Shown here: positions 2,603 to 62,545 of the stretch, piece after piece
Layout of the letters: the number at the start of each line of letters is the position of its first letter
Numbering within the stretch: the first letter of the stretch is position 1
Origin: Asterochloris sp. CNOR1
Lineage: Eukaryota > Chlorophyta > Trebouxiophyceae > Trebouxiales > Trebouxiaceae
Assembly: GCA_963969365.1 (NCBI GenBank)
Contig: OZ017758.1
Location: 1,488,001-1,552,000, forward strand
Length of the DNA: 64,000 nucleotides
Reading direction: 5' to 3'
Notes under the pieces: model-generated
Databases searched by the model: none
Told to the model about the DNA's origin: nothing
What the model saw: the letters and a program-made list of their open reading frames with translations, nothing else
Made by a program: the position numbers and the translations under genes

Positions 2603-5600
2603 ATGGATTCCCTGCATCCTGCGGCTCTGGGAAATTCCCTGCCGCCCAGTCGATGGGTCATGGAGCCAAGCCATGATGATGCCAATCTCACCGACGAACT
2701 CTTCACCGCTCTCACCCCTCAGCCTGCCGTGGCGGCCACCAGTCATTTTGCAGAGACTGGTAAGGAGACAAAAGCCCAATGTTGCATGGATGCATCATTC
2801 CCCCAACATTCAGACAGCATTTTCAACCACCTGCCATTCCGCGGGTGCAGTGCTGCCAGAAAGTAGCACCTCCAGCCTTCCCGATGAGCTGGAGGCTGAG
2901 GTTGACACTGGGCTCAAGGAGCGCCTGGATGTGTGCAACAAGTTCGCTGCCCAGCAGCTGCAGGTGGGGCTCACCCACCAGGCTTATGTGCATGTTACCG
3001 GCTGCTGAGGAGAGTGCACCTTGCAGGCAGGCTGTACTTACTGCACAGCATCGCCCTACCTGCTGCCTCTGCATACTGCAGGTACTTGGCCGGGAGCTCG
3101 GCTTCTGAAAAGCTTGGGAGCACAGTCCTCCTGTACTTGTACAGCTGCTTTATCACCTCTGTCTGCTGCCCCTCAAAACGGATTTCACGAGTAGTTCTGA
3201 CCAGCAGCTAGGCCGCTTCCTGCAGGACTACCTGCGCACTCTGAAGGCGCGCCTGTCCTCCCAGAGTGAGTCGCAAGCAGCTCTGGCTCGCCAGCAGTCT
3301 GACAGGGCCATGCAGGCTAAGCAGACGGAGATTGAGGGTTTGAGGGAGACCCTGGCGCAGGACCAGGCTACCCTGCAGCGCTACACGGTTGCCCTGGCCA
3401 AGTGAGGCCCAGCCTGTGCACCTTCAGCCAATGCCAGTGCATGCCAGCCAACTCACCCAGCAGGACTGCATGCAGTGCCAGCAGATGCTGGCGTTTCCAG
3501 AAGCAGTGTGCGCGGGAAGCCATGCCACCTCAAAAGCCCGCACATGCATCAGGGATGCACATGTGTGCACAGACAGCGCTGAGCACTGCCCAATAAGATG
3601 CCCCTGCTGGCACTGATGAGACCGGGCAAAGCTGAGGGGGCCACACTGCAGGCCTCGCATTGCCCGCCATGCCTGCAGTAACACAACCCCAGGCCTGTGA
3701 CTCTGCAGGCTGCTGGGCTGCTACGTGGCAGCAAGGGACAGCAAGCAGGTAGCAGACATCTTCATCGCCTGGTCGCACTATGCTCAGGGGTGCAGGCGCA
3801 AGGCCAAGATGCTGTTGGTGGCCGGGCAGCACTACACAGTGGGAAGGCTGCAGCGCGCTGTGGTGCTGGCATGGCAGAAGGCTGCTGCCCACGAGCGGCG
3901 CGCTACTGTGAGCACTGGCTGAGCTGCCTTGGTGGAGTCAGCTGGACCCTGGTGGAATTTGTTTCACTCAGCAATGTTCGGGCGCTGGCCCGTGCGCAGG
4001 TTCATGTGTAAAAACGCCTTCGGCATGAGCATGCACCCTACCACAGCGAAAGCAGTGCTGTTGCTTGTTTATGCCCTCCCAATCAGACACGAGGACGAGT
4101 CCAGGCAGCTTGGCAGTCCTCAAGTCGCCCATGTACAGGTGGCCCAGAGGCTACAGCAGGCCCACCAGGCAGGCAAGGCAGCCGCCTGGACCGACTGCGA
4201 GGTGGTGGTTGCCCGAGTGGAGGGGGACCTGGCAGTTGCGCATCAGGCAATACAGCAGGAGCGTGCTGCGCGGGAGAGGCTGGAGCAGGAGATGAAGCGT
4301 GCATTTATGAGGGGAGTGTGCGCACTCAACATTGAGGTAAGGCTGGGCGCTATGGGGCTGGATGCTTGCTGTGTCAGGGATGCATGGCACAGGGACATTA
4401 CTGGACTGGCTGGACACCTTTGAGTAGGATAGCATGCACTCCAAAAGGAGATGGGCGTGAAGGCCTTGTGGAGCAGGGTGGGGCCTTTGGCAGGTATGGT
4501 GGGCCTTGGGCTATACGTACCAGGCGAGGCAGGTGTGGCTGCGCACTCAGGCAGGGGTATGTGCATGCTCAACATCAGGGTGAGGGTACAGCACCAGACT
4601 TTTGGGCGCCAGTCAGAGAGACATCTGGGCAGGGCGCTCAACCCAGTGAGGTGAGTGTTGGGGCAGATATGGGTGATCATCAGCCAGACCGAGTGGCTTA
4701 GCGCAGTCACGATTCATGACTCCAGACAGCCACAGTGGCAATGTGCCCTGAACACTGAGGGTGGGAGGCGCAGTTGTGGACAGATACCTCACAGGAACAT
4801 GAGCTCTGAAGGCCAGGAGGTTGGATGAGGGCAGCCCAAGCCACTCAGGTTGTCCACGGCATGTGAGATCTGGTGCAGGCCATGAGCTGCTGATGAACAC
4901 GCCTCATGGGGGCACATATGGCTGCAGGCCATGACAGTGATGAAAAGGGGCATGCCAGGGGGCGTCAATCCTTTCCCTGTGGCAGTGAAGCTGGATGGTG
5001 ACAGCTTGGAGGGGCCTGGTGCAGCCGCAGAGTCTGTGCAGCAGCAGGAGGCACAGCATGCTCAGGAGTTCGGGGACTCTGGCTTGGACACCAGGCGAGG
5101 TGTGCCCATGCAGAGGGCAGAAATCTGATGGTCTTGCACTCAATGTTCATGTCAAGACAACTGCCGTTGACCACAGAGCAGCAGCAGCTCCTGCTCTGGT
5201 GTGGGAGAGCTTCAGTGCCGGCTGCCTGCCACAAATTGGTAATCCTGGCATCTTGACAGCTTGTTGTAGTGGAATCACCTGCCATGTACGGCCTGTTTCT
5301 GAGGCCCGTCTGGTGTGAAGGCAGTGCGTGTGGCAAGCCCCGCATGCAAGACCTGATAAAAATGCACAGCAACAGCTCAACCTGGCAATCCCTGCGCTGG
5401 TGCAGGTGTTGCAGTGAGCACTTCAGATCAGCATCACCCTGTCTTGGGGGTTCGGCCAGGGCTGAATACAGGTGACAGTGGGTCCATGCATGCCAGGATG
5501 CAGCGCTGATGAACAGAGTGCTTGAGCAATGTTCCGTCTGTGTGCCCGAGTGCTGAGCTGGACAGGCACCTTCTTGTTGTTGATGGGGTCCAAACCTTCC

Positions 5601-6589: not shown

Positions 6590-6671
6590 TATCCAGGGCA
6601 GCACACTCAGCACAATCATGACCAAGTGCTACTTTACCGGACAGTGCCTGGAACAATTCAGTGTAATGGGT

Positions 6672-9437
6672 CTAGCGTGTCAAAGATCTTGCAAAGCGCT
6701 GCACTGAAGCCATTGTGTTGCCCAGAGAGGCAAACAGGCCAGTGCCACCACCCAAGCCCTTCTCCTCGTTCTCAAGCCCAAAGGCATCTTGGATGATGAC
6801 ATCAAGGGCGTCACCTGCATTAGGCAGCAAGCAATTTGTTGGACCCTAAGGAATGGACTGCGATGTCAATGACGTGTCTGCAGAGCCTGGTTGCTGGCAG
6901 CAACACTTCCTAGTGACTTAAATCCACTTACAGCAAAGGGTTGACAGGTCTGATTGGCCGGCAGCAGGGATTGTGTAGGCTTGAAAGTGCAAAGTGAGGC
7001 AAGCCCTCACCTGCTGGGCTGGAGGGCCTCTCAGCGATGAGCTTGTATCTGCCGGGCGCCTCCAGATCCTCCACAAAGACCTGCCACATGCCAGGGTAGC
7101 GCCGGAACACAGTGCCAACGTCGCCTGCGCAGCATGCCAGCTCATCAGTCAGCAACCAGGCGGTAACAGCTGCTGCGCCGACCACCAGGAACTTGCCACA
7201 GGGTCAAGAGTCACAGGTTCCCCACCAATTGGCAAGCAGGATTGTTGTCGAGCTCCCTGGCTGCAGACCTTAGCCTGCTGCGGATGAGTGTGTGTTGTCA
7301 AGCAAGTAGGCCTGTGGCTCAGCAAGGTGACTTAAACAGCTTTCTTGCTGCAAACAGACAAAGGCAGAGCTTCTCACCAATTGGCCTCAGGCTGTAGGTT
7401 GTGGTGAAGGTGGACATGAACCTGGAGGCTAGCCTCCGTGCATTCAAGCCAACGCCAACATCACCACTGCAGGCAGAAAGTGACCTTGAGGCCGAAGCGA
7501 GCGTTCACTCAAGTGTTGGTGTAAGCATATGGCAGCGCCGCATGGAGCGTCTTGAATGCAGCTCCAACACAAAAGGGCAGACCCCTGACCATTGTAATGA
7601 GATGTCAGAGCATTCCAACCAATGTTGGCCTTCAGAGCGTACTGACCTGACTAGTCTGGGATTGAACAGGACGAGAGGAATCTTGCCCTCTATCTCGCTG
7701 GCAATACGCTTCACCCCCTCGAGTCCTGCAGCAGCAGATCTGTTGCTGGGAACGGGGGCAGTGATAGCTCTGGCCCATCGACCAGCCCAGGGCCGCCAGG
7801 AGACAGCCATCATGAGTGCTGCTGCTGCAAGGACAAGCAGCATGTTGGCATGCAAAGCCTGCATGGCATTCTCAAGGCTGCCCCTGGGACTGGGCAGAAC
7901 AGGGCTTTATCCAGATGGCGCCTTGACAGTGATGGTACACTGACTTGACCAAGGTCAGATCCCGCTGCCAGCTGGCCATCACACAGCCAGCATGGCAACA
8001 TGCTGAAGTGCAGTCAATCTGGCATTTGCAGCCTAAGGACTCATTGTGTGGGGGTCTGAAGCTGCCACCACCAGCAGTTTGACAAAAAGCCTGACTGTCA
8101 TCCCACAAGCGCCTCATGCATGGCACAACTCAGCTGGAGAAGCTACCTTGAGGGTCTGGTGCTGCCACAATGACCAGGTCATCATCCTCGCTGACAGGCT
8201 TGCGGTCTGCCAGGCTGGCCACCGAGAAGTTCATGTCTGCCCACTGGTTCTTCAGCATGGCTGCCACCCCCATGTCAGGGTACACCTACACACACCCCAC
8301 CTAGACATAACGACAAGCTCATGCCTGTCCTTTCGAACTTCAGCATGGCAGGCACCTCAAAGAGAGTGCATGCCATGTGTGCTATCAATTGCAGGCAGAC
8401 GGCTCGCACAGCTGCCTGCAGAGGCCACTTGGAGGCAGCATGAAAGCAGGCACTCTCTGCAGCAAGCCCGTGCCATGAGGCAACACCAGGCCACTGCAGT
8501 CGAAAGCAGGCAGCTCAAGCTACCTTCCATGCAGGGCAATGGCGTGTGAGCATGCGACAAGCTGCAACAGTGCATGGCTCACAGCTTTGACTTTGGTGTA
8601 GTTCCCTCCTGCGGCCAGGCTCTCAATGAAGCGCCGCGTCAGCTTCCAGAAGCGCTGCTGGTCGCCCTCCTCTGCAAAGACAGGGCCACTGCTGGGATCC
8701 CAGAATTCCTGGAGCAACACCTCCACCTGCAGCCATGAGCTTTGTGTATTTGATGGTGTGTTATCGCCCTCATGCCCTGTGGAGCCCTGCCAAGGCTGGA
8801 GCAATACCTTGGCCTATAGGCATGGATGTTGCATGTGTGTAGGAACAATGTTGCTCCTTGTGGCATCTTATCAAGCAGCAGGGTGTCCTGGCAGGGGCTC
8901 AGCCATGCCTTCGGCCACTGGCAGCATTCCGCCATCTGCCGCTGGGTGCCGTCAGATGCCTGAAAGTTGCCACATTGCTGGCTCCTGACAAGCTTCATGC
9001 ACAGCAGCATACATGCTGCACCCATGCCCATGCTTCAAGGACCCCTTCCAGGCAAGGTAGCTTTTGCAGAGTCCATGGCTACCGCCGCTGTGCATTGTCA
9101 GGCGACTCACAATGCATCTGTTGGCGCCTCGTTGTAGCGCATCTGATGTGGCTGAGCTCCCTTGGTCTAGAGCATCTCCCAGGCTATCTGGCAGCACGTC
9201 ATCATCCCGAGGCTGTGCTGTGGCTTGTCCTTCCTCTCTTTGCTCTGCAGGACAATGGTCTTGGGTGAGCAAATGTATGCGGGCCCGCTCAATCTGCTTG
9301 CCTGTGCAAGTGGAACTGTTTTTGCTTGCTGCACTCATGCTACATTCACATACAACATGCAGTGCTGCAGACTGCACCTGAGCTGCCATTGCTGTCGGCA
9401 GTGGCAGTGGCCAACAATCTTCGGCGCTTGGCTGCAT
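6672..9437 (-). CDS. DUF1995 family protein, likely chloroplast
   Basis: Eight exons (9437-9354, 9212-9111, 8726-8583, 8285-8147, 7725-7647, 7466-7378, 7124-7011, 6814-6672) close in frame to about 297 residues. The DUF1995 pattern is visible throughout: VYPDMGVAAML and DDDLVIVAAPDP, then EGKIPLVLFNPRLVSGDVG, GLNARRLASRFMSTFTTTY, LRPIGDVGTVFRRYPGMWQV and GRYKLIAE. The family occurs in cyanobacteria and plastids; Arabidopsis LPA3, needed for photosystem II assembly, belongs to it, but membership alone does not give this protein a role. Exons 1 and 2 are the least certain. The gene is divergent from eEFSec, about 210 bases apart, and its 3' end meets that of POC5 almost directly, possibly with overlapping transcripts. 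Confidence 0.85.
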
Positions 9438-9647: not shown

Positions 9648-12600
9648 ATGAAGTCTAGAGGAGTTCCCGCGGCCAGTAGCGTATACAATGTGAATGTGGG
9701 GGTCCTGGGCCATGTGGACAGCGGCAAGACAAGCCTGGGTGAGCTCAGTGACATGTCATCTCAGATCCGTGAAAATGCTCTGTTATGCCTCCAGCAAGCT
9801 TTCCGGGCTCCTTTGATGGATGTCCAGCCTCAGTCAGGACACAGTCCACGCCACCATTAATGCACTGTGTCCATTTACATGTCCATGCCGCGATGCAGTG
9901 GCAGCCCTGTCCACCAAGTTTTCTACTGCCGCCCTGGACAAGCACCCTCAGAGCAAGGAGCGGGGCATCACACTGGACCTGGGGTTTTCATGTTTCATCC
10001 TGCCCATGCCCCGGCACCTCAAAGCTCAGCTGCTCCAGACACAGCTGCAGTTCACTCTGGTGGACTGCCCTGGCCACGCCTCCCTCATCCGTACCATCAT
10101 GGGAGGCGCTCAGATCATTGACATGATCATCCTGGTTGTAGATGTGACAAAGGGCATCCAGACACAGACCGCAGAGTGCCTGGTAGTTGCAGAGGTGAGT
10201 AGTGGCCGAGAGTGCCAGGAGGCATTGCGTGCGATGGCCTCAAAGCAGAGGCAGCAGCCCTCTGATTGTCATAGTCCTCAGACATGCTTGAGTGCAGACA
10301 ACATGATTACAAAGGTGCTGTGGCGAGCAGACCCCTTGAGGGGCACAGGCCCAGCTGATTGTGAATCTCATGCTTGCCAAAGTGTACCTTGTGCCAGATA
10401 CATTCGTGTGTGAGCCTCAGCACAAATGCCAGCACCCTTTGCCGTGCTTGGTGAAGTGCCTGCAGGCCCCCAGCCCACAACCTAGCCCAGCCACTCTCCC
10501 AGCCCCAGCTGAGCGTACTGTGTTTGCTCATTGGAGCGACCTGCCCGGCACTTCGCTCTGTCTCGCTTCACTGCAAGGCAGTGCAGCCAGCTGGTGGGCA
10601 GCCCATGCCTGAACCCTTCTCTGTGCTGCCAGGTGGCCACCCAGGACCTAGTGGTGGTCCTGAACAAGGTGGACCTGCTGCCCGCAGAGGTCCGGCCCAA
10701 GCTGGTGGCCAAGGCGAAGAAGCGCCTGGCCCAGACCCTCAGCGCCACCAAGTTTGCTGGCTGCCACATGGTTGCAGTGGCAGCCAAGCCAGGTGGGCCT
10801 GGGTGCTGTGGTCAGGTACAGAGGTCAACACAGTGCCCTGGGACACCAAGACTTCGGGTGCAAGAAGGGCTGCCTACACGACATGTGGCACGGCACCAGC
10901 CATCCACAGCTCAGTTCTGCAGCATTGGTCCCCATTGTTCTCACAGCCCAGCCTGCTCGAGAACCCCAGATGTCCTTTCAGCAGCAGCGCAGGCAGTGGT
11001 GCTTGCTGCAAAAAAACCCCCGCTGTACCTTTGCAAAGATTCCTTTGTTCTTTCAGTTGTGTAAATCACGCTGCACATGGCAGGCCGCTCAGTTGTGTGG
11101 AACACGCTGCACATGGCATTCTGCTTTGCCATCAGATTTCAAGTTGCAATCCCACCCATCTCAAGTCATCCGTTTGACATTACGCTGCACTGAGCCACCT
11201 GTCCGGGTGATGGTAGTCAGGTCTGTGCAGCCGCAGCAACCTCTTCAGTGTGCATGCTCAGTCTGGGCACATGCTCACTGTCTCTGTCCCCATTTTTGTC
11301 CTTTCTGCTTCCCGTGATTGTGTCTGCTGTCATGTCGCACTGCCCTGTCCTGTGCAGGTGGTGGTGGCGAGATCTCTGCGGCTGCAGCAGCCTCTGCAGA
11401 GGGTGTGGATGCCATTGTGCAAGAGCTTGTGCAGCACATCCCCAGCCAGCCGCGGGTGACGGCTGGCCCTTTCCAGTTTGCCATAGACCATTGCTTCAGC
11501 ATCAAGGGGCAGGGCACAGTCATGACTGGCACCGTGCTGGCAGGCCAGGTCAAAGTCAATGACAGCATCGAGCTGCCAGAACTGAAGGTGAGGCTACCAG
11601 TGGTGCCTCAGCCTTTGCAGATTACCTGCTCAAGGTGTCTTGCAAGAGGTGTTGAGTACTGCCAAGAGTTGTCAGGGCCACCTGGCACCTGAGCTTGCAA
11701 CACATTGGTCAGGGTGAAAATGTGTGTATGGGCAGGGGGGTGCCACTTGTGCATCTAGACCTTTGTTGCACAAATCCTTAGGAGTATGATGCAGTTCATT
11801 TGAGACAGCCACATTTTGCCTCAATGCTGCATTAGCATGCTGCTGCTTCCCAGGCTAGGGTGATGCTCATCATGACCTTGCTGCTGTGCAGGTTTCCAAG
11901 AAGGTCAAGAGCATTCAGATGTTCAAGCAGCCTGTCCCTCAATGCTGCAAGGTAACAATGGGCTGTGAGCTGCCAGGTTGGGCTGGTGGCTATTCACTGA
12001 CTGGACACTGTCCTTTGCAACAGCAGGCTCCAATGGCCCCAATGGCAGAGCAGAAAGTACTGCTGCACATCTGTGCAGCAGTTGACCTGCCTGGCAGCTG
12101 TCCTGCCCTGCTGCTGTATGGCTGGTGTAGTGCAATGCGTGACTGTGTGTCTCACGCAGTGCAATTGCCCTGCAGGGGGACCGCGCAGGCATCTGCGTGA
12201 CACAGCTGGACCCAAAGCTGATTGAGCGCGGCCTGGCATGCACACCTGGTAGCCTCCCCACCTTCTCCAGTGCGATCATTGCTGTCGAGAAAATCAGATT
12301 CTATGTAGGTGAGGCCAGCTCAGGCCAGCCTGTCGCAGGTCCCCTGCAGCTCTCACATGCTGAACAAAGTCATCTACACGGCAGTGGGACTCACAATTGC
12401 TGAAAGCCCTTGTTGGCATTCATGGCCTGTACAGCAGCCTCACAACCAGCAGCACATATAGGCATGCTGCCCCTGCACAGCAGAGTGCGCTTGCTTGCCT
12501 GCACCAAGGTGCTGCTCATGCAGCAGCCAACCAGCTCTGCGTTTGAGACGTCACTGCTTGCCAGTGCAAGCTGCCTGCCGCAGGCTCCATCCACTCGCGC

Positions 12601-14507
12601 AGCAAGTTCCACATCACCGTCGGCCACAGCACCGTCATGGGGGAGACCCAGTTCTTTGGTGTCCCAGATGGGCAGGGGCAGCCCCCTGCAGCAGCTCTGC
12701 CAGCCCTCATCAAGCGTGTGGGGCAGCTTGCAGTCAAGGTGAGCTCCCCAGGCTCATGCTGCTGCAGCAGGCAGGTGACGTCAGGTCACAGGCGGATGAG
12801 CAGCCAGGGGCTGTGGCAGGCAGAATAAGCCAGGTCAGATGCAGGTGTGAAGCCAGGGGCTGTGGTTGCAGCAGCTGCTGTGGCTGCAGCAAAGCCATCC
12901 CTGACAGCCTGGAGTGTTACTTTCCACCGACGCCTGCTGCACATATCCCTCTGCAGCCCCGGGCTGCATCAGGTGGCTAGCTTGGAATGGCCCGGGCGGC
13001 GGAGCACACCATGCTGCGGCTCAGAGGGAGCTGCTTCCCTGCTGAGTAGACCTTACAGGCGCCCTGCCGAACCCCAAAGCTGCAGCTTGCCACTCTGGCA
13101 CAGCAACTTCTTGCTGCTGCCTGCAGGAGCACCCTGTCCCTTTTGACCTGAAGCAGGACTACATGCAGCAGGACGAGCTCCATGGCCTTGAGGGGAGGCC
13201 AGTCAACCCATTCACTGCATCTTTGCCGGGCCAGCAGTCTGCACAGGCGCCTGCTGATGGCCGCCACTATGGCCCCCAGTGGGGCCTGGCCCATTTCTCT
13301 CAGCCAGTCACTGCACCCCAGGTCAGCCCCAGTCAACATATACTACTATATGCGCCTTGCATACCGAGGCCTGTTATGCAGGCGAGCTCGTAGCATCCCA
13401 AGAAAAGTGTCCTGGAATGCTAGTGCACCTATGACTCACAATCCACTAAGTCAGGTTGCAAAGCAGGAGCCACTTGATCTGGCAAACTGGTGAGCTGACT
13501 GGCAAGGCACTCACATACAACCGCACAGCTCTGTGATACATGTGGTTATGGCCCAGCCCTGGTCTTCCCTGTTGGCTGCATATGCAGGATGTGGAGTGCC
13601 TTGACTGCTGGGTCCCGCTGTGAGTGTGATGTAGACGGCCCAGCCTCTTGCCTTGCAATGCATGGCACCTCAAGCTGCTGCCGCCAGTCTGCCATGTTGT
13701 TATGGAGGACGTCTGGTTGACTGGTCTCATCTGGAGTCTGATTGCACACAGCTCAGCTCACTCAGCTGTTTGGCTGCAAGTCCCCACCTCCGGCTGCTGC
13801 TTCTAGACTGCAATGGCTTTGTCATGTGTGTAGGACGCCTTGATCATTGGTTCTCGCTTCGACTCGGACGCAGACGGCTCAGCCTGCCGGCTTGCATTCT
13901 ATGGGAGGATTGCCATGCTCCTGGACGACAGCAACCCTGCAGCGCTGCAGCAGCTGCACTTGTTCAGGCTCAAGCAGAAGCAGGGAACCATCGAGCGTGT
14001 GGCAGCAGATGGCCACTCTGCTGTCTGCAAGGGCATGTTCAAGAAGGAGACAGACATCTCGCTCTTCTCAGGCATGAAGGTGAGCAGCAAGCGCAGGCCT
14101 GCAGCAAGCGTGCTGGGCAGCACGGCAGAGCTGGACCTGCATCTGTTGCCTGATGTTGTGTTGACTGGTCACTTGCCCATCACCACATGCGTGTGGATCC
14201 CATGCAGCATCTGTAGAGCTGCATGCTTGTCTGTTCTTGTATGCATCTCTGGAGCATGATCGCCTTGTGAGCATCTGGGATCTTGACCAAAGATATGTGC
14301 ATTGAGTGAAGACATGTCTTGAGCACGGTGCTGCAGGTGGTGACAGCCAATGGGGACACAGGGGTGATTATCGGATCCTTTGGCAAATCTGGCAAGTTCA
14401 AGGTCGAATTCAGCAATGGACTGTCAACTGCCCAGGATGGTGGGGCCCGCATCATGCTCACCTTCAAAAAGTACATGCATGGCAACAAGCACCTGATGGT
14501 ACAATAG
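9648..14507 (+). CDS. EEFSEC: Selenocysteine-specific elongation factor eEFSec
   Basis: Ten exons (9648-9738, 9899-10194, 10633-10792, 11358-11587, 11892-11951, 12176-12308, 12584-12738, 13127-13321, 13834-14079, 14337-14507) join in perfect phase to 578 residues, close to the 596 of human EEFSEC. GTPase motifs are in order: G1 GHVDSGKTSL, G2 region KERGITLDLGFS, G3 DCPGH, G4 NKVD. Domains II and III follow (FSIKGQGTVMTGTVLAG; GDRAGICVTQLDPKLIERGL; KFHITVGHSTVMGET). The C-terminal domain ends VVTANGDTGVIIGSFGKSGK. The order and spacing match eEFSec rather than EF1A or EF-Tu. The protein delivers Sec-tRNA(Sec) to UGA codons with SBP2 and a SECIS element, so this alga very probably makes selenoproteins. 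No frameshift or missing catalytic residue was seen. Confidence 0.97.
11054..11121 (+). repeat. 36-bp tandem duplication in an eEFSec intron
   Basis: Two near-identical copies begin CAGTTGTGT and contain CACGCTGCACATGGCA, at 11054-11085 and 11090-11121, in the intron before exon 4. They resemble no flanking exon that I can see, so this is a plain intronic duplication. Confidence 0.7.
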
Positions 14508-47722: not shown

Positions 47723-50700
47723 TCAGCATTTCTGCTTCTTCTGGCGTTTCTTGGCAGCTCTTGCCGCTCGGGGGTTGAATTGGCCTGGCTCTGAATACAG
47801 CATCTCATCTGCATGGCGGCACTCAGAGTTATTGTCTGGGGAAGAGGTGCTGGCATCCCATGCCAAGGCCAGCGCAAGGCACCGCTCAGCAACCCACCCT
47901 GCATGCCCTTATTCCTTAGCTCTGGCTTGTCACCAGTACCCATAGCCTCTGCCACATCAGCACTCTGCAGCTGGGGTACTGCCGCCGCCTGACTGTCACT
48001 CTCTTCCATGCTGACAGGCCCAGCAGACTGCATCTGGAAGTGTGCAGTGGTGGCCTCCTCCAGGGACGGCAGCCCAGCAATCACCGCAGACGTCTGGTGC
48101 CTGAATGCCTGCAGGCCAGAGTGGCATGAAGGCAATCGGCAGCCCAAAGGATGCCTACTCTGGGCCAAAGCTAGGAGCTGGCCTGTGCAGCACCTCACTG
48201 CAGGCCAGACACCAGTGGTACTCGAAAAACAAACTCACAGACGTGTGATGCTAAAGTCTGCCTGACGGGCACGTAGCAGCCAGCGCAGGCAACACAACGC
48301 CTGGGTTCAGGCAGGATGCATAGCCCCTTGCACATGCAGCAGCTTGCCCAGTGAGCCCGAACCACAGGTTTATTTTGGGGGTCTCAGCACAGCACCACTC
48401 CCAGGTAGGCACGTCCTCCTCTGCAGCGTCCTCTGCTGGTGCTCATCGATACTGTGCAGACCATGGCCTTGAAGCAGGTCCCACCGCACCTCATCAGCAT
48501 CAAAGTCTGTCGCCCAGCTGGGCACCAGCTCCGCAGCCGCGTGCCCCTCCTGGCTGCCTCGCGCGGGGGGCAGGGTGTAGAAGGGGATGCGACCATCATT
48601 CCAGTCGTGCAGCACCAGGCGAGCAGCTGCCACCACGTCTGCAGTGCCCCCCCTCTGCAGCTTGCCGCGAGCTGCGGCCACCCTCTGCAAAAACTCTTCC
48701 GCCCCTGCAAAGGCTGGGATGTTGTACACAGTCATCAGCTGCTGGGCTGGGCACCTCTGCACAATCTCGGCCACGGGGGCAGTGGGGTCCTCCAGCTGGT
48801 CGACCTGCAGCAAGAGGGCAAGAACCAGTCAGAGGTGGGGTGATTGTCAGGCCAGAGTAACAGTGGGCTCTGGTGGAGTGGTTTGCTCCTCCAGCAGGAC
48901 CACCTGCAGCAAGGAGGAGGGAGGAGCTGACGGCCAGGCAGGAGATCAGCTGTTGGGCTGGGCACCTCATACAATGTCCGTGGGCAGGCCACATGAGGAT
49001 CAGCTGGTTCCAACCCACTGAAGCAAGCAGGAAAGAGGGGCGATGTGCAAAGCCTTCAATGCAAGGCAAGAGGCTGGGCGCACATGAGCAGCCATCCTTG
49101 ATTTGCACAACCCTCCTGAGCATCAGCGCTCATTGCACATGTAGAACCTTTCTTGCGTGCTCTGCAAAGGCTGTCACCCTGACACACGGGGATGCAAGTC
49201 AAGGCGTCCACGGACAGCACATCAGGCATCGACCTTGATCATGAATGCCATTCCCAGCTGATTGGCGCGCAGCTGCAAGTCCAAGCAGAATCTCCTGGGG
49301 CAGCAAAAGTCCATTGTAGCTGTCAGGTCAGCTCCACCCACATACAATGCATCTGGACAGCAGATTTCCCACGGGCTGCCCTGCTGACGTCAACCCTGAA
49401 GCTGTCGGCCATGTAGTGGCAGCACCACCCCCCCTGATGCTGCGCAGGATCCCTGCTGGTCCTGGCGCCTGCTTCACCAAAGACAATCCCCAATCTGGTC
49501 AACCACCATCATGTTGCAGTAGTGGGAGCGATCACGTATAACACAGTGCGCAGCGCATGTGCGCCATGAGCCCTCACGACCACCCCATTGCATGTTTTTC
49601 TCCTTCCTTTCCAGTCACAACTTCCCGTGTCCAGTCAGCGTAGCCATGCATCTGCAGCGGCACGCACCTTGATGCAATTGCGCAGCGCGCTAGCCCCCTC
49701 AGTCCCCGCGCCTGCCCCGCTGAACACGATTCCGGGACTGTCCAGCAGCCTGACATGCTTGTCCAGCACCACTTCCTGCACCGTCTTGGTCACCCCGGGC
49801 GTGTTGCCCACCTGGGCAGCCCGGCTGCGCTTCAGGCTGTTGATCAGGGAGGACTTGCCCACATTGGGCAGGCCCACTACACCTGCACAGGGACAGACAC
49901 GCCTCTGTGAGAGATAGGATCAGCATGGCAAGACTTTCATAGGGCCCTGTTGAGCTGTGAGCTCCTCCTATACCTGCTGAGCAGGTCCACCATGCTTGCA
50001 CAGGCCCAGCCAACTTGGGCAGCAAAGGGGCCTGTTCTCTCCTGTCCTTTAGGGGCTGTTAGGTCTTGCCCACATGCTAAGGCACCTGAAGGCAGGCGCA
50101 GGAGGTTTGCCTGGCAGCAGCGGCCCTGCTCAGGAAGTCATCACATGTAGGGTGCTATTTGCTATCGGCATGGTGCAAGCCTTGAGACCCTTTCAAAAGC
50201 CTGTCATTGCACAATGCATTGCTAACCTCAGGAGTCTGTCACCCCCCAGGCAAGACGCCCAGAAAGTCACTGTATCAATCGCTGATGCTGTGCCCTGCCA
50301 TGCATCCCCAGCAGACAGAGCACAGGTGCCCCAACGCCTCACCAACAGTGATTGCTGTCTTGACATCAGCGTTGCGGCTGTAGTTCTTCAGCAGCTGCAG
50401 CAGCGCCTCCGCCCCCAGGCACTCGCTGGTTTGCAGGGCACCCTCAGGGGCGGCCCCCACAGGCAGGCGCTTGTGGCTGAGGTGGGATGCCTGCTGCTGG
50501 GTGGAGCACTTGAAGGCCACTGTGGGGAGCTCCTCGCGCAGGTAGGCCAGCCACTTCTCAGCCACCTTTCGGGGCACCAAGTCTGCAGCATGAAGCAGCT
50601 TATCACCGGGTGCATCTTCAACCGACTGCCTGGTTGCTCGAGGCACGCGCCTGTAGACGATGTGCATATTGGCGCAATTGGGGGTCAGGCTGGCTGAAGG

Positions 50701-52892
50701 TAGCAGCAACACGCTGCCAACAGCACACCAGTGCTCAGCATCCCTAGCAATGTAGGAGCCCAAGTCGCCGGACAAAGATTATTGGCACGGCTGCAAAAGC
50801 TGCACCTGGTGACAAACCTTCTAGGTCTAACTGCGAACAGTCAGGACGGCTCACCGATCTTGTTGAGCAGGAGGATGACCTTCTTGTCTGACCCTGAGCG
50901 CCGCACAATGCGCTCCACATCGGTGCAGCGGCAGGCCAGAGGGTCCCGCGCGTCCAGCACCTCAATGACCACATCTGCTGCCTCCACCACCTTCATGAAC
51001 TCACGGTAGAAAGCCTTGCGGGTGCCATCTGCAGGCAGCAGCGTGTTGTTGATGATGGCTTTCTGACTGACAGCACCTGCGGGCAGCATGTGTACTGTCC
51101 CATGGCTGCTTCCAGAATTGACCTAGAGGTGGTACCAGATGCTACCCCATGATGAGGTGACCTCAGACATGCATGGCACGGAAACAACCAGCCCACCTCT
51201 GTCCTGCTGGACCCCTTTCAGGCAGCCGCGGCCAATCGCCTGCTCGGTGCCTGCCTGCATCGCCGGCACCTCCTGCTGCATCGACTTTACAGCTGCCACT
51301 CTTTCCCACAGCGGTCAGCTGCAGACCACAACAAGCACACCTGCGCTGTGGCCCTGCAGCCTCAGCCCGCTCTAGCCCCTCCTGCAGGCACCTGAGGCCC
51401 CTGCGCCTGCTCAGAAGGCTGCCTGTCTCCCCTGCACCTGCTGCTGCACCTGCTGCTGCCCCTGTTCCAAGCTGCCGCACTATTCACACCTGCAGCCTGC
51501 CCCTGCAGGCTCACCTGTGTCCCGGGGGGACCCCCCTTCCTGGACACCTGAGGCCCCTGCCTGCCGTCCCTGCACCTCCTGCTGCACCTGCTTGGCAGCC
51601 ACCACAACATGCAGGCCTTCAGCGATGCCCTGCGGCCCCACCTCGGTCCCCGCTGGGCCCCTTCCCCGGCACCTGGGCCCCCTGCGCCGCCTCAAAGGCC
51701 GCCTGCTTCTGCTGCACCTCCCGCTGCACCTGCTCCATGGAGGCCCCCTCCGCAGGCACCTCCGCCATCTCATCGTCTGCCTCAGGCTCTGAACCAGAGC
51801 CATCGCTCATGTGTGGCTGTGCTGCCCCAGGGTGCAGGCCTGCTGCTGCTGCAGCCTGCAGGGTGTAAGGTGTAAGATTGTGGGGTCAAGCCTTTGGTGG
51901 AACAGGTCCTGGCGCAGAGTGCGGCAGGGCTGCCAAGGCAAATTGATTTCAGAGGGGACAAAGGTGTCCCTGTGACATCAGAGCGAACGAACATGTAGAG
52001 CATGGCCAATGTGTTTACTGACACCAGTGGGCTGTGCACGACAACAGATGAGCAATGTCTGGGAGCCTGCCTGTGCGTGCAGCGTAGCACGGCATGAGGT
52101 CATCCCAGCCAGCCTCTTTTCTCTGCTGACATGCACCGCTGTGCTCATCAAACATGCTGCACCCAGCCCAACATCTCTGTGCAGTTGAGCTGCCCTGTGC
52201 CCAGGGCAAACTGCTAAGTGTGCAAGCCCTCTGCATGAGGACAGCACGTGCAATCGCCCGGCAGCACTTGGCAAGCAGTCACACAGGGCCCGAGTCCATC
52301 AGCGGGTGATACTGTGCTGCCCAGCAAGCCACCTCAGTCAGTATACACCTCCTTGCTCAGTCTGTATGCAATCCTCGTGGATGCAATGTCAGGGTCATGG
52401 AGCCTCATACAAAAGCACCTGTGCTGTCCGTCGGGCCTCCTTGCGGGCCTTGTCATCAGCCTGCATGCGCTGCTTCTCCCAGGCCAGCTCCTTGAGCAGC
52501 TCCTCCTTGAAGGGCCACTGTGCGGGGATCCCAGGGTCCTTGGGGGCAACCTTCTTCTTGCTGCCGCCCGCCTTGCGCTGCGCCTTGGACTGCTTGCGGT
52601 GGTGCTCCTTCACCTGCAGGGGGCTGGTGAACTTGATGGGCAGGTGTCTGCAGAACTATGGGAGGCACAGGCTTCAACAGAGCCACCGAGTCAGGGAGAC
52701 AGGCCTGCAGGCTCTCTGCCTGGCGTCTGGTGGCACAAGCAGTGGCAGTGGCGTAACTCCTTGCACTGGGGCACCAGATGATCACTTGGTGCTGGCTTGG
52801 AACCTGCAAAGGGCCCGCACCTTCTTCTTGATTTTGTATTTCTTGCTGAGCGTCATACGCTTGGACTTGCTCCCCTTGCTCTTCTTTGGCAT
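47723..52892 (-). CDS. GNL3: Nucleostemin-like nucleolar GTPase
   Basis: Exons recognised: 52892-52821, 52613-52419, 51816-51673, 51076-50855, 50582-50343, 49882-49668, 48804-48490, 48108-47934, 47835-47723. Their sum leaves exons 3 and 4 out of phase, so a small exon between 51076 and 51673 is missing from my model. The N-terminus is a basic nucleolar signal ([20 protein letters not shown]) plus an acidic coiled coil. The GTPase is circularly permuted: G4 LLLNKIDLVP comes first, then G1 [11 protein letters not shown]2 region NTPGVTK and G3 [19 protein letters not shown] precedes G4 as in all YlqF/GNL proteins. The C-terminus is basic ([11 protein letters not shown]). It resembles GNL3/nucleostemin and plant NSN1, required for pre-60S maturation in the nucleolus. 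Confidence 0.93.
48940..49012 (-). repeat. Decayed copy of the start of nucleostemin exon 7
   Basis: The exon reads, on + DNA, ATCAGCTGCTGGGCTGGGCA then CCTCCAGCTGGTCGAC beside its acceptor (48734-48804). The intron repeats ATCAGCTGTTGGGCTGGGCA and later GATCAGCTGGTTCC at 48943-49011, about 210 bp away. Confidence 0.75.
51235..51605 (-). repeat. Tandem pseudo-exons after nucleostemin exon 3
   Basis: Exon 3 ends with [20 protein letters not shown]. The following intron, read in the coding direction, contains [19 protein letters not shown] (about 51530-51600), then [14 protein letters not shown] before a stop (about 51405-51470), and a weaker [12 protein letters not shown] (about 51250-51290). 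Each is followed by a CAGGTG-type junction. These look like three successive duplications of the exon end, now decayed. One might still be the missing small exon. Confidence 0.7.
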
Positions 52893-55858: not shown

Positions 55859-56242
55859 CCATAGCTGCAGCTGCATCAGATCGAGCACAGCAGCAACCAT
55901 GATATCCATAAAGCCACATGCCTGTGTGCTCTCTTATTCAACTAAAGCCTGTACAGTTGTTTGATGTTTGACTGAGTTGAATAGGTTAAGATACTACTTG
56001 CCTTCTTGCGGTTTGACCTACCTACTTTCTTCAGCGCGCGCTGTGACCAAGTGTTCCGAGTAACGCTGCACCCCTTCCAGCTGACAGCATCGGCGGCAGG
56101 CATATCAGGCAGCTCACCACCTGCATTGCCCAATCACCAGGTCAGCCTAAAGGGATGGTCAGGTCTGCTGGACTTTGGGGCAGCGCCTCTGAGTCCCGAA
56201 TGCACATGCAGGCACTAGGAGCCTAGGAAGAGGCGGTCCAGG
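55859..56242 (+). promoter_or_regulatory. Upstream region of the SAXO-Hsp70 gene with shared module
   Basis: About 385 bases after the epimerase stop. GATGTTTGACT lies at 55963-55973 and TGACCTACCT at 56014-56023, 51 bases apart start to start. The same two words lie 54 bases apart upstream of the epimerase. Sequence around the first word also agrees (GTTGA and TA follow in both). Confidence 0.45.
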
Positions 56243-59200
56243 ATGGCTGGACAGACAGAGCCCCAGTTCCAGGACGACTTTGCCACTCCCTCCTCTGCCC
56301 ATGAGTCTTACCACCCCATCGCCATCCAGCTGTATGGGCATGCCAACAAGTTCAATGCCACAACGACCAACAGGGTGAGGCACAGTGGAGTGACATCACA
56401 CCTGTGGGCGGTTGGGCATGTGGCATGCCATCTGGGACAGGCAGCTCCAGTCTCAAGGGTATTGGCCTCTGGCTTCTGCAGGCCCAATATGACACATGTT
56501 TTGTGAAAGCAGTGTAGTGGCACAGCTGCACACAGCACTTTCGGTTTCTTGAATGGGCTGTCCTTGCGCCCACCACGGTGGCTCAATCGCTGCTTTGCGT
56601 GCCACATGGCTGTGCAGCCTGTCTTCGGCTCAGCCAACGCCTGTGGCGCCCAGCTGGCAGCACATGTTGTAGACCTGCAGCCCTGCAATCTGCTGATTTG
56701 CCAGCCCCCGGCGGGCACCTATGCGGGATACCAGCAGCCTTGGGAGACCTGCTGCTGAGCACGTGCCTGCTTTGTTATGGCCTGTCTGTCACGAGCAGCC
56801 CCATTCACGCACAGTGTCTGACCCAGGTGCTCGCTCCCCGCTGGGTGAGCTCTGGCAGTGGGATGTCTCTGTGTCAGTGTCACTCCCTCTGATGGGCACA
56901 CTCCTGCCTTTGCTGCCTGCAGGATGCGCTGATGAAGCAGAGCTGCAGAGCCCACTCAGCCTCCAATGTGCTGGTTCCAGTTTTGCACTGCCCACCTGCA
57001 ATGCACAACGCTTGCCGTAGGCGCCACTTGAGGCACATCCTGATTTCCCATTTTTCACCTGCCCTGCTGCTACAGCAGGATGCAGACGAGCAGGGGGAGC
57101 TCCTTCAGTGCAATTCATATGCTTGCCACTCTTCAGAAGGAGCGCAAGCAGTGGGAGGCGCCTCTCGGCCTGGCAAACATCCTCTCAATCTTTGACTCCA
57201 GTCATGGCCTTACCTGCAGGATGCATACAAGTGGTGGGGCCTGCCTCTGGCCCACCAACAGGCAGCCGTGCTGCTGGCCAAGTGGCTGTCCTGACAGACA
57301 AGCATCAGCAGTGGGCACGCCCAGTTTCACTACCTACGCTCTTTTCTGAGTGGGCCTGCCACTGCCTTGTAGACCCATGCGCATGCACCCACTGACTGCA
57401 GGATGAGTACAAGCAGTGGGAGCTGCCTGAGAGGCACATGCATGCCCCCGCGGCAGCACGCCCCCAGGTGCCTTTTGAGGGGACCAGCAGCTACCATGAT
57501 GCCTATCATCCCCACCAGCTGGAGGCGCGGGTGCCGGTGCATGTGGAGCCCTACAAGGGTGAGGTGCACCTGTACCAAGCGTCTGGGTGGAGACTGAGGG
57601 TAGACTTGAAGTCTGTCAATCAGCTGGAGGCACGGTGGCAGTGAGTGGAGCCCAACAAGGGTGCGCTGTTGAGCACCATCCATCTGAGCATGCTGCTCGA
57701 TGATACAGTGTTGGCGTGGCTGGGGCAGGGGCGCCGGTGCATGCAAAGCTCTGCAAGGGTGAGGCACACCGGCGGCCACCCTGAGCACCTGTGTGCAGCC
57801 TGCATGGCTCACTGCATGCTTGCTTTAGCACATGCTGCCCTGTGTTTGCTGCTGGACGCACAACAGCATGCAAATCAGTGCGAGGAGGCTAGTGCATGTG
57901 GAGGACTATAAGGGATGAGCGGCGTCTTTGATGTTGGGGCAAGCGGGCTGCAGCGCTAGGCAACGACAGCTGGAGTGCAGATGGAGCCCTACAGGGGTGC
58001 CTGGAGCAGTCCACACAAAAGGCCCCTTGCCGCTGCTCAAAATCTGGCTGCTGCTGCTGAAGCAGAGCCAGAGAGGATAAGTTTGAATGGGGCCTGTTCA
58101 GCCCTGCAGCCGGTCGCTACTTTTGCCTGCTGTCTGTCAAACTTTGCTGCAATGCTGTCCTTTGGGCAGATGAGCAACATGCGCCTCGCTGCCTCTCAAG
58201 CTGCGGTTCACAGCTTGCCCACCTGCTGCCGGTTGGGAAGAGTAGCTGACTTCTCCTGCTCCCATGCGCTGCTGCAGCTGCCTTAACCCACATGACCGCC
58301 CGCCTCCCACCCTGCAGGCACCGGGGTGAAGTTTGACGCCACAAGCAGCTACCACGACCAGTACCCAGCACACGCGCTGCAGCAGCGCTCGCCGATGGCG
58401 CCTGTGACGCCCAAGCGGGACACCGGCAAGTTTGATGGGACCAGCTCCTACAAGGTGGGCTACAAGGTTGTCTATGCATGCCAGTCCCTGCTGCTTGGTG
58501 TCAGGCTGTCAGTTGAGCATACTCCTGCTGTGCTGCCATTAAGCTTGGGGCTATATAGCCTCATTCAGACCAATGCCAGTCCTGGCCTGGTGCAGCTATG
58601 GCACTCCCTATGCTATTCAATGCAGTTCGCAACCCGGCCAAGCACCGCTGGCACTGCAGCTCACCCTGACCGTACAGACCAAGCCCTGCCGTGCATGGCG
58701 CTGGCTGGACCACAATTTGAGCCTGGCTGAGCCACAGGTCAGGCTCCTGGCTGACTTGTGGTGCTCTCTGTCTGCTGCAGGACCAGTACCCGGCGTACCA
58801 GGTGGAGCCCCATGTGCCCCAGCATGGGCCCAAGTATGAGCACAAGAGCGTGCCCTTCGACGCTACCACCACTAACCAGGTGTGGGTCAACACTGCAACA
58901 CATCCTTTTGTCGTATTGAGCGTGCTGCCGCCCTCAGCAGACACAGTGATGGGACTACACAGCTCGAAAACATCCAGGGTAGACCCATCTGGCATGCTGA
59001 AGCTTGCAGCATGAGCAGTTTGCTGCACACCATCCTGCAATCTCTGGCTGTGATCACAGAGCAAACACTTGCATGCATGCTGCAAAGACTGCTTCTCACT
59101 TTGTCATCCTGAGAGCTGCCGCATTGGCTTCCAGCATCCATCTGCTTGCTGCAGATACACAATAGGCAAGTTGCAGGCTCCTCAGGCTGCTGTGTTGGGG

Positions 59201-62200
59201 AGACTCCTCGGTGCCAAGAATGTATATCAGACACTCTTTCCTGTGCGTGGCTGCAGGACATGTACAAGGCGTATCAGGTGGAGCCCCACGTCGCGCTGCA
59301 TGCGCCTGTGCAGGCCAGGCCCCATACAAAGTTTGAGGGTGCGTCCTTGGACGCCAGCACAGTGCCTTACTGTCTGTCCATCCAGTGTGCTGGGTGAAGG
59401 CTGTGCAGCCGCTTGCCTTCAAAGGGAGCCCTGTGAGGGCCACCTGCCAGTGCATGGATCAGCCAGTCTCCTTATGTGCACATTGGCTGTGCCACCTACT
59501 GCATGGAATAAGGCAAAGCTGCACCCCTCCTCCCCCGTGCTGGCCCCCTGCAAGCAATCATCATGCTGTATCGCCTGCTGCATGGCGCAGCTGCAACCCA
59601 AAAGCCCCTGAGACCTCCCTCCGCTGCATGCATCAGGCTGAGCAGTCTGCTGCTTGATGCCACCGCGCTGCTGCATCCTTACCCCATGCTCATTGCCCCC
59701 AGGCTGTGCTGCATCGTCCACCAAGCCTCAGCCTCTTATCAAGCGCCACCAGTTGCCAAACATCCCCACCCCCAGCCACTGCCACCCTGCACCATTGAGC
59801 ACACTCTTTCCCTCAAGGCTTGACCACCAACCAGGACACAAACAAGCTGTGGCAGCCACAGCCACTCTGCACGGCATCTTCATGCTGTGCCAACCACAGA
59901 ACGTCTCTCGCGCCGTTTGTCTTTGTGCAGGCACAACCACCAACCAGGACGCGTACAAGGCCTATGCGGTGCAGCCTCGCGAGGTGCACCACGTGGACTA
60001 CAAGTACGCACCAGTGCCGTTTGAAGGGGAGACGGAGGCACATGCCCAGTACAAGCAGTGGGAGCTGGAGAAGAGGCCGCCGCCTCCGCCTGCACCCATC
60101 AGGGCTTCGCTGCCGTTCGAGGGTGAGCAGGAGAGCAGAAGATGCTGGGCTTCTGAGCAAGAATGATGCCATCAGCTGGCTGCTTGTTGAGGGCGTGTCA
60201 AGACAGGGTGCCTCCTGAGGGCTTTGCTGCTGCTTCATTGCGATTGGGGAAGCGGCCGTCACCGCGACCTGTGCCCATCAGCGTTTGGCTGCCGTTAGAG
60301 AATGAGCCGGCATGTCTTGTGGCCATGAGGTCAAGAGGAAAGATCTCGTTCTGAGAGGTCATTGCTGTTGAGGGTGAGCAGGAGGACGCAGGAGGGTACT
60401 CCTGACAAAGACTGCAGCTGCCAGCACCCATCATAGCCTCGCAGCTGTTTGCAAAGTGAGTTTGAAAAGAGCTTGGATGCAATGGAGAGTGCTTGGCATG
60501 GGGCTTTGCTGTTGTTTGGAGGAGCTTGCATTGCTAGCTTTTGGGACCACATGCTGTCGCTGCGTGAATGGAGGAGAGGCCCCATGCCTGACATCAGCGT
60601 GTCGTGAGGTGAGCTCAGGGGGGCGCGAGTGGGGAAATACGTTGCTTGATGCAAAGGCTAGAGGCCACTTGCGGCTTGGTGTCAGAGATGAAGCTGGCAA
60701 CCTGCTGCAAACTTGGTGGAGCTTTAATGGCCAGACACAGGCAGCTTCTGGCTCTAGACACCAGGTCTGAAGCAGTATTGCCAGCTAGGCAGCCCTGCAC
60801 AGCGTGAGAGCTGCAGCTGAGTATCACAGACAGGCATGCAGCTGGCTGTGCCGACTGCGCCTCATGGAGTATCAAGAAGGCTGTGCTGACTTTGCCTCGT
60901 GCAGCATCAAGAAGTCACCAGCTTACAGCTTCAGCCAGTGTCAGCAGATTGTTCAAGCTGCCTTGTGCCCAGCAACTGCCTTGTGCTCAGCACTCGGTAC
61001 CTTTGCCAGCAATGGGTCAGTCTGCCTCAGCCCTTTATTGGCAGCCAGCAGCTGGGTGTCTGCTACCAGCCACGCATCTCTTGCTGCCAGCCCAGCAAGG
61101 TGCCTAGTGCCAGCCAAGCGGTCTCGGGCTCTTTGACAGTCTGCTGCAGCTCTGTGGCATGCTCAGCCCCCCAGGCACGGATCGCAGCATCCACTTATGT
61201 GTGCCTGGCTGCAGGAACGACCACGAACAAGGAGATGTTCAAGGGGTGGGCGCTGCCCAAGAAGAGGCCCACCCTGGGCATTGCCATGGTTGGTGACCAG
61301 GTGAGAGCCTGCCTGCAAGGCAGCCACCTTGTGGGTTCTGCTGCAGATGGGCACCCTGGTCGGCAATTGCCGCAGTGGTCAGCAGCGTCTTCCTATCCTG
61401 CATCCTGTGTTTAACCAAACGCAGACCTGAGCTGCATAACACTTGATCATTGCACAGCTGCCTTTCATCTTACCAGACAGTGCTGAGGAACGATACTGTG
61501 CCTGCTGGTGCCAGCAGACTTTGCATGAACAAGCTCATGATGGGTGCCTGCGTCTGCAGACAACCACATGCTGCACCGCTGCTCTTGACACCTACATGCT
61601 AACCAATACCCGCCTGTCTGCTGCCCTGCAGTACCATGTGCTGCTGCCGTCCACCCTGACCACTCCCTGCCACGGGAAACAAGTGTTCACCACGGTGCAT
61701 GACAACCAGCCCCACATGTCCTTCGTGATCTACGCTGGCGACAGCCCCAAGGCCAGCAACAATGTGCACCTGGGTCAGTTCCAGCTGCTGGGTGTGCCAG
61801 AGGCGCCATTCGGCGAGCCGCAGATTGAGGTGCGCCGTGCGCATTGCACACAATCAGGATGCTGACTGCACACGGGGTGATGCAGCTGATTCCGCAGGCC
61901 CCTCATCAACCAGGATAAGTGGACTAAAGGGGTTTTCGTGAGTCAGCCTGCTCTCTTGCCCCACAGGATGCTTCACAGCATACCCATATTCAGCTTGCCA
62001 GGTCCCATCGGCATGCCCAGCACTTCCGAACATTGCTTGAGGAGCACCTGTGCTGCACTGCTTTCATAGACAGCCTATGCCCAGCTGCACTGCTTGCAGC
62101 CACAAGCCGGCCCTATGGCATCTGCTTGAGCATTCAGCTTTCAAGCCATGCCAGCCTGCAATGAGCCTGCAATGAGTTAGGCACCCCATGCAGATCACAT

Positions 62201-62545
62201 TCCACCTGGACAACAACAACGTCCTGACTGTGGAGGCGCGGGACCAGGACAGCGGCCGGCACCACTTGTGGAAGTCAAGTGGCGGCGCAGTGGTGGCCAA
62301 CGGTGTCAGCGCCGCGGACTTGAACACCCAGGGTCACTATGTTGTAGGTGGGTCCACCAAGCCCCTAGTCTCATGCCTTGATGATCTGAGCCTGCTCCTC
62401 CTGATGCTAGGGACTTGCAATTTGACTTTGTCGCCTAGTAATGTACTTCTGATACAAACTCAAAATGCTGCAGCCTGCTGAGTCAGCTGGCTCCTGCCCT
62501 GCAGATTACGCCAATCACACAGCACAGCAGCCCATTGCAGCTTGA
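56243..62545 (+). CDS. SAXO/STOP-type axonemal repeat protein fused to an Hsp70 substrate-binding domain
   Basis: Ten exons (56243-56374, 57402-57558, 58318-58454, 58781-58879, 59257-59338, 59931-60122, 61215-61300, 61632-61829, 62194-62347, 62505-62545) close in frame to 425 residues. Residues 1 to ~285 are Mn-type repeats of SAXO proteins: FNATTTNRDEYKQWELP, VPFEGTSSYHDAYHPHQLE, FDGTSSYKDQYPAYQVEP, VPFDATTTNQDMYKAYQVEP, GTTTNQDAYKAYAVQP, LPFEGTTTNKEMFKGWALP. Such repeats bind microtubules in cilia and basal bodies. Residues ~290-400 match the beta-sandwich substrate-binding domain of Hsp70: LPSTLTTPCHGKQVFTTVHD, GQFQLLGVPEAPFGEPQIE, then ITFHLDNNNVLTVEARDQDS. No Hsp70 ATPase domain or helical lid is present. 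The exon joins between repeats and Hsp70 part are phase-consistent, so the fusion seems real. A TGTAA motif lies at 62613-62617. Confidence 0.85.
56915..57321 (+). repeat. Five decayed copies of SAXO exon 2 start
   Basis: The true exon start at 57402 reads GATGAGTACAAGCAGTGGGA after CTGCAG. Related blocks precede it in the intron: 56915-56948 (GATGCGCTGATGAAGCAG), 57073-57103 (GATGCAGACGAGCAGGGGGA), 57131-57163 (GAGCGCAAGCAGTGGGAG), 57212-57245 (GATGCATACAAGTGGTGGGG) and 57291-57321 (GACAAGCATCAGCAGTGGGC). Three of them keep a CAG directly before the block. Spacing is mostly 60-80 bp after a longer first gap. Confidence 0.75.
57621..58000 (+). repeat. Four decayed copies of SAXO exon 2 end
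   Basis: The exon ends with CAGCTGGAGGCGCGGGTGCC, then GTGGAGCCCTACAAGGGTGA including the donor. The intron repeats it at 57621-57664 (CAGCTGGAGGCACGGTGGCA, then GTGGAGCCCAACAAGGGTGC), 57729-57763 (CGCCGGTGCATGCAAAGC, then TGCAAGGGTGAGG), 57891-57920 (GTGGAGGACTATAAGGGATG) and 57971-58000 (CAGATGGAGCCCTACAGGGG). Donor-like GGTG or GATG is mostly kept. Confidence 0.75.
59812..60465 (+). repeat. Decayed copies flanking SAXO exon 6 on both sides
   Basis: Before the exon, 59819-59870 repeats its start: GACCACCAACCAGGACACAA against ACCACCAACCAGGACGCGTA. After the exon, its end (CACCCATCAGGGCTTCGCTG, then GTTCGAGGGTGAGCAGGAG) is echoed at 60249-60310 (GCCCATCAGCGTTTGGCTGC), 60368-60385 (GTTGAGGGTGAGCAGGAG) and 60416-60465 (CACCCATCATAGCCTCGCAG). 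The coding exon itself (59931-60122) lies between them. Confidence 0.75.

Follow-up and report, generated by a model that had tools for sequence, protein, structure and literature searches.

Decayed tandem copies of exon edges in the introns of the green alga Asterochloris sp. CNOR1

The window under study is a 64,000-nucleotide stretch of the green alga Asterochloris sp. CNOR1 (assembly GCA_963969365.1, contig OZ017758.1, positions 1,488,001 to 1,552,000) that carries predicted genes for POC5-like, DUF1995, eEFSec, ZIP transporter, GT61, helicase, OST1, nucleostemin, and SAXO proteins, and in these genes introns hold decayed direct copies of the start or end of the adjoining exon. A fine search of the window, using 100-bp exon windows and a score of at least 15, returned 43 alignments of exon edges in adjoining introns, at 25 junctions of 9 predicted genes, compared with 0-3 in six dinucleotide shuffles of the introns and 0-2 in six swaps with introns from other loci. 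The SAXO gene holds 10 of the copies, nucleostemin 8, ZIP 7, OST1 6, and GT61 5, with 3 in the DUF1995 gene, 2 in eEFSec, and 1 each in POC5 and a small predicted gene, g14. The initial annotation, made from the letters alone, had described such copies in POC5, ZIP, GT61, OST1, nucleostemin, SAXO, and the helicase, and they are present in each with unequal clarity: the 5 to 10 alignments per gene in ZIP, GT61, OST1, nucleostemin, and SAXO compare with a single one of score 15 in POC5, and the helicase copies come from the raw repeat scan only, as one pair of 38 bp (Table 1) and another at 29411-29443 and 29515-29547 (33 bp, 81%). The helicase is absent from the nine genes because its predicted gene starts too late, and the DUF1995 gene, eEFSec, and g14 extend the original list. 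Alignment scores no better than those of dinucleotide-shuffled introns, which would have spoken against the claim, are not what the counts above give.

Exon edges were taken from our own two-strand semi-Markov gene finder, which was trained on these sequences with five window-derived seed peptides and simple splice strings, GT and TGCAG already among them, as its starting point, and which converged on the donor AG/GTGAG and the acceptor CTGCAG/G (slash, junction). The main sample comprised 244 kb at 19 places, that is, the window and 18 stretches of 10 kb (L002-L019, one piece from each of 18 large contigs) of a 56.4-Mb assembly in 21 contigs, and in it the finder called 48 genes with 354 introns of median length 355 bp. 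All eight window proteins that were scanned match Pfam over the curated cut-off; POC5 and SAXO, neither of them among the eight, keep the names given in the initial annotation. The predicted OST1 protein aligns to the human OST1 structure 6s7o over residues 15-457 (E=1.2e-101) and the predicted eEFSec protein to 7zjw over residues 4-553 (E=2.8e-158), and because these alignments to solved homologues are nearly full length, most exon edges of the two genes are sound. In the model OST1 is fused with a phosducin-like gene.

For the sample-wide test, the 60-bp start or end of each exon was compared, after trimming of splice signals, with its own intron, a score of at least 16 counting as a match; the 354 introns offered 344 acceptor and 342 donor edges of sufficient length. 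A match to the intron directly upstream was found for 37 of 344 exon starts (other-locus introns, 5 of 1720; shuffles, 4 of 1032), and a match to the intron directly downstream for 35 of 342 exon ends (other-locus introns, 2 of 1710; shuffles, 3 of 1026). The strongest evidence for order comes from wrong-side controls, because they have gene, neighborhood, and composition in common with the right-side tests: among 201 internal exons with equalized intron lengths, 33 starts match the upstream and 28 ends the downstream intron, whereas starts matched downstream in 0 cases and ends upstream in 0, which bears out the order and orientation originally claimed. At a score of at least 18 a junction copy occurs in 16 of the 19 places, with zero in L002, L011, and L017, and the pattern thus extends beyond the window over the sampled genome. 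The 72 junction copies occupy 67 of the 354 introns; introns with copies have a median length of 513 bp and those without 319 bp, though long introns also give more room for detection. Six further loci (60 kb), held out with the gene model frozen, repeat the effect in part and more weakly, with 7 of 90 donors against 1 of 450 controls, right-side pairs in 1 and 4 of 37 exons against 0 and 0 of 37 on the wrong side, and, with both kinds of edge pooled, 8 of 178 (controls, 2 of 890).

Self-similarity was also scored without annotation. Scanning the 244 kb for ungapped direct repeats at every lag (the distance between the two copies), with +1/-1 scoring, gave 245 direct pairs of score at least 18 at lags of 20-499, against 3 inverted pairs within 500 bp and 2 direct pairs in one dinucleotide shuffle in 1-kb blocks. 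Pairs per lag are more frequent below 500 than at 1000-3000 in 19 of 19 places (L002, L003, L011, L015, and L017 having just 2-4 pairs), and the rate drops about hundredfold or more between lags near 100 and lags beyond 1000. Repeats of score at least 16 cover 10.3% of predicted intron bases (shuffle, 0.3%), 9.6% of coding bases (shuffle, 0.08%), and 3.3% of intergenic bases (shuffle, 0.11%). Per available position pair, the density of exon-intron pairs is 1.04 times that of intron-intron pairs (bootstrap 0.74-1.41), and lags divisible by three make up 23 of 27 coding-coding pairs, compared with 19 of 71 exon-intron pairs. From the equal densities and the triplet coding lags it follows that introns, junctions, and exons are all hit and that selection retains the duplications that preserve the protein; special targeting of junctions, as first supposed, is therefore not supported. 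At lags of 20-60 the exon-intron density falls to 49 against 263 for intron-intron pairs, about one fifth, perhaps because a tolerated unit would have to carry a complete splice site.

The anatomy of the copies bears on how they arose. In banded alignments the similarity extends 8 bp or more to either side of the junction in 52 of the 72 junction copies, and 15 bp or more in 42, so that the duplicated unit carries splice signals, as in tandem genomic duplication. Their lags run from 63 to 418, with 56 of 72 within 80-200, a wider range than the 60-210 bp spacing given initially. As for a minisatellite or other tandem repeat array, some alignments stay in register over more than two lags, as in OST1 (lag 109), at junction 603 of L005 (lag 82), and at junction 9503 of L019 (lag 89), but Tandem Repeats Finder reports just 7 entries for the window. 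At acceptor 8841 of L005, the youngest junction case, 128 columns align at lag 130 with 91% identity, and the copy is a whole unit of 80 bp of intron end and 48 bp of exon start. A local head-to-tail origin is what these features describe: direct repeats in the same intron, in the correct order, with a youngest unit as long as its lag. Identity base by base at the junction was left unused, since the ends of local alignments lean toward matches. In the same stretch, L005:9010-9198 holds a 96-bp in-frame duplication within a coding exon (93% over 95 bp) whose second copy ends at a donor, and at this donor, 9198, a further decayed copy lies in the next intron at lag 120.

The intronic copies decay as non-coding DNA. 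Mismatches at codon positions 1, 2, and 3 amount to 21, 21, and 28%, the higher third-position value being what synonymous substitutions in the exon would produce; 102 of 117 indels have a length that is not a multiple of three, and 43 of 72 copies are frameshifted relative to the exon. From the near-uniform mismatches, the non-triplet indels, and the frameshifts, the copies are not maintained exons as a class. Decoy splice sites persist in part: the AG survives in 20 of 31 acceptor copies, the GT or GC in 11 of 26 donor copies. The score that separates the weakest tenth of the real sites at these junctions from the rest is reached by 12 of the 31 decoy acceptors and 3 of the 26 decoy donors. 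Selective inactivation of the decoys was considered and set aside, as the retention of AG and GT, by estimate rather than computation, is about that of general decay and gives no clear sign of it.

Table 1. Exon edges and their decayed copies in the window (positions of the window; real, the edge in the exon; percentages, identity)
Feature	Position	Strand	Remarks
OST1 exon start with acceptor, junction 40749 (living copy)	40691..40761	-	protein aligns to human OST1 (6s7o)
OST1 decayed copy 1, exon start with acceptor, intronic	40800..40870	-	lag 109, 77%
OST1 decayed copy 2, exon start with acceptor	40926..40976	-	lag 220, 76%
OST1 exon start, junction 38261	38229..38276	-	four upstream-intron copies: 38451-38488, 38520-38554, 38615-38662, 38698-38725
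eEFSec exon-start decayed copy	11198..11248	+	real 11349-11399, lag 151, 76%
eEFSec exon-start decayed copy	13598..13665	+	real 13837-13904, lag 239, 69%
ZIP exon-start decayed copy	18877..18940	-	real 18695-18758; also 18957-19006, 18990-19015; lags 182, 278, 269
ZIP exon-start decayed copy	19611..19663	-	real 19513-19565, lag 98, 74%
GT61 exon-start decayed copy	23465..23520	-	real 23275-23330, lag 190, 77%
GT61 exon-end decayed copy	25220..25272	-	real 25325-25377; second 25136-25178; lags 105, 195
Nucleostemin exon-end copy	51415..51454	-	real 51695-51734, lag 280
Nucleostemin further exon-end copies	51253-51280, 51438-51469, 51533-51560, 51559-51592	-	lags 448, 268, 125, 142
Nucleostemin exon-start copy	48887..48913	-	real 48788-48814, lag 99
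Nucleostemin second exon-start copy	48945-48968	-	real 48734-48757, lag 211
SAXO exon-end copy	57724..57770	+	real 57524-57570; also 57645-57668, 57880-57914, 57975-57999; lags 200, 102, 355, 438
SAXO exon-start copy	57214..57246	+	real 57396-57428; also 57072-57108, 57131-57163; lags 182, 323, 265
SAXO exon-end copy	60245..60310	+	real 60066-60131, lag 179, 76%
DUF1995 gene exon-start copy	8311..8356	-	real 8223-8268, lag 88, 76%
Helicase exon-start copy	29246..29283	+	real 29441-29478, lag 195, 76%; exon start read by eye, unpredicted
POC5-like exon-end copy, weak	4553..4585	+	real 4310-4342, lag 243, 73%, score 15

Two sets in Table 1 call for care in reading. The register of the nucleostemin exon-end copies is partly ambiguous because the stretch is simple and CTGCACCTGCTG-rich, and for the SAXO set around 57724-57770 lost repeat exons are an alternative, because the predicted protein is itself repetitive. 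The SAXO gene model, which spans 56243-62545 of the window, may represent a fusion, or the prediction may have run two genes together; its final stretch seems to resemble the substrate-binding part of Hsp70. The near-full-length eEFSec gene at 9648-14507 indicates that the alga has a selenocysteine-insertion factor. Elsewhere in the assembly, contig C20 (110,056 bp) carries cox1 and is on that account probably the mitochondrion.

The copies, their order, their crossing of junctions, their non-coding decay, and a youngest unit as long as its lag are well accounted for if small tandem duplications, arising throughout genes and then filtered by selection, produced them, a reading to which we assign a probability of roughly 0.82. 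On this model small tandem duplications, with lags mostly of 40-400 bp, would arise throughout the genes of the alga, possibly from events such as the fill-in of a staggered break followed by end joining. Where the unit lay across an acceptor, intron end, AG, and exon start would come to stand twice, head to tail; where it lay across a donor, the doubled sequence would be exon end, GT, and intron start. If splicing stayed at the site beside the real exon, the protein would be unchanged and the extra copy would turn into intron, where it would decay while selection held the exon copy; each event would then add one unit to the length of the intron, an array could enlarge in register to several copies, and duplications within exons would survive almost solely in frame. 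The initial annotation had proposed repeated tandem duplication across splice junctions as a maker of new intron sequence, and the parts of that proposal that stand are the duplication across junctions, the derivation of intron sequence from exon edges, and the difference from introners, whereas the targeting of junctions and an unchanged present rate do not.

Several observations weigh against this explanation. Intron boundaries are our own prediction from sequence, and in the hold-out loci the acceptors, taken alone, lie close to their controls (1 of 88; controls, 1 of 440). In-frame stops in the 72 copies number 7 where 21.7 are expected, about a threefold deficit, with smaller ones in the other two frames (21 against 29.5 and 19 against 24.8), and synonymous changes number 169 against 138 expected, so that part of the copies may have gone through a coding phase, or may be exons that the prediction missed. 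Changes on the exon side, which cannot yield stops, explain only part of these two signals, and decoy acceptors that score like real sites would have to be avoided in splicing. Age is a further difficulty. In the full sample of 304 kb at 25 places (the main sample and the six hold-out loci), 319 duplications align over 40 columns or more; their identity peaks at 70-75% (108 duplications), and the following 5% bins hold 78, 40, 16, 1, and 3, so that just 4 of 319 reach at least 90%. A constant birth rate should make young copies at least as numerous as old ones, and because close copies are the easiest to detect their scarcity is real, barring assembly collapse; a steady ongoing process, as the initial annotation implied, is thus not supported. 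Two readings would fit: a faster process in the past, which we favor, or copies that were already diverged at birth.

Chance similarity in a low-complexity genome rich in CTGCAG, a hexamer that outnumbers all others in the window, can be practically dismissed, since dinucleotide shuffles, introns of other genes, and wrong-side introns fail to reproduce the pattern. Introners or other dispersed mobile elements, which might resemble exon edges by chance or through target duplication, have the precedent that introners are known from green algae (PMC9860276), but they too are very improbable here: among 300 locus pairs from the 25 places only 2 DNA matches between loci were found, both in sequence called intergenic, against 59 direct matches within loci below 500 bp, no intron matched an intron at another of the 25 sampled places, and a genome-wide search with the OST1 array (40680-40980), in which very common words were skipped, returned its own place alone. 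The distinction from introners drawn at the outset is thereby upheld. The sole similarity between loci joins L013:7146-8304 and L018:9012-9923, which are 62-65% identical and possibly represent an old mobile element.

A closer competitor is that the intronic copies are real exons, missed or mutually exclusive, that were miscalled as intron, and the stop deficit and synonymous excess described above, together with the repetitive SAXO protein, are what this idea would lead one to expect. We nevertheless regard it as improbable: tandem or mutually exclusive exons should keep an open frame, yet most copies are frameshifted, their indels are mainly non-triplet, and their mismatches are spread almost evenly over codon positions, while OST1 and eEFSec align to their solved homologues nearly over the full length without the copies, and synonymous changes on the exon side probably account for part of both signals. 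It is likewise unlikely, if somewhat less so, that a junction-specific process, for example one tied to transcription or splicing, copies splice sites preferentially. Such a process would suit the presence of exon-intron columns in 190 of the 319 duplications, as well as an intergenic density only a third of the intronic one in the first sample (0.34, bootstrap 0.14-0.66); against it stand the equal per-pair densities of exon-intron and intron-intron repeats and the hold-out, in which the intergenic deficit was reversed. The deficit was accordingly dropped as a feature of the system, although the reversal is owed mainly to two unannotated stretches, L021:7565-9276 and L025:7833-9600. Local duplications crowd both of them (11 pairs in the first, 14 in the second), and they are possibly missed genes cut at the end of the sampled stretch.

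If small tandem duplications filtered by selection did produce the copies, one may ask how much of the introns they made. Because the exon keeps one duplicate while the intron duplicate decays, comparison of the two shows directly where intron sequence came from, and it is conceivable, though we hold the idea only tentatively and at less than even odds, that a past wave of duplications spanning splice sites largely set intron length in this lineage. In that event much of the present intron sequence would be decayed exon and decoy splice site, laid down by repeated outward copying of edges, and growth from the edges would be a general mechanism of intron lengthening, open to dating and to comparison among species. 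The lengthening of introns without transposons is, in our judgment, little understood, and the pattern makes intron growth datable and predicts decoy splice sites at known places. It also supplies a simple test for any annotated genome, namely the comparison of each exon edge with its own intron, with wrong-side controls.

Internal gene duplication, reportedly the subject of Gao and Lynch 2009, is relevant to these observations. Tandem genomic duplication is a recognized mechanism of intron gain, the Rogers model (PMC3443670), and it has in common with the alga that local head-to-tail duplication supplies both intron sequence and splice sites and that splicing can preserve the coding sequence; it differs in that a duplicated exonic AGGT makes a new intron, whereas in the alga existing introns have apparently been lengthened, with no new intron position shown. 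In a potato RdRp gene, a tandem duplication crossing an intron-exon boundary produced a new intron (PMC4974935), and the duplicated unit is composed, as in our acceptor cases, of the 3' side of the intron and the 5' side of the next exon, carrying branch site, pyrimidine tract, and AG along. That case concerns one gene and a recent event that gave an extra intron and a piece of exon, whereas in the alga 67 of 354 introns are involved, the copies are old and decayed, and the exon is unchanged where this can be checked. Novel introns of Drosophila (PMC2891723) likewise go back to duplications in exons, one copy of which was then intronized, though the duplications reported there lie within coding sequence and have proto-splice sites. 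A general source of small tandem duplications is offered by CST and Pol alpha-primase, which produce them from fill-in at DNA breaks (PMC8355091), with the difference that the study concerns mouse cells and short insertions of <100 bp. Introners, for their part, are a known algal supply of intron sequence (PMC9860276), but they form dispersed families of similar introns, whereas the copies in this alga are local and unshared between sampled loci. The initial annotation, which knew of no description of a genome-wide pattern, is borne out in part: the potato case and the intron-gain mechanism are published, and for the genome-wide form of exon-edge duplication no report turned up in full-text searches of open literature, where most subscription papers are lacking. 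What is likely new here is the extension of tandem genomic duplication from single genes to the likely lengthening of introns in many genes.

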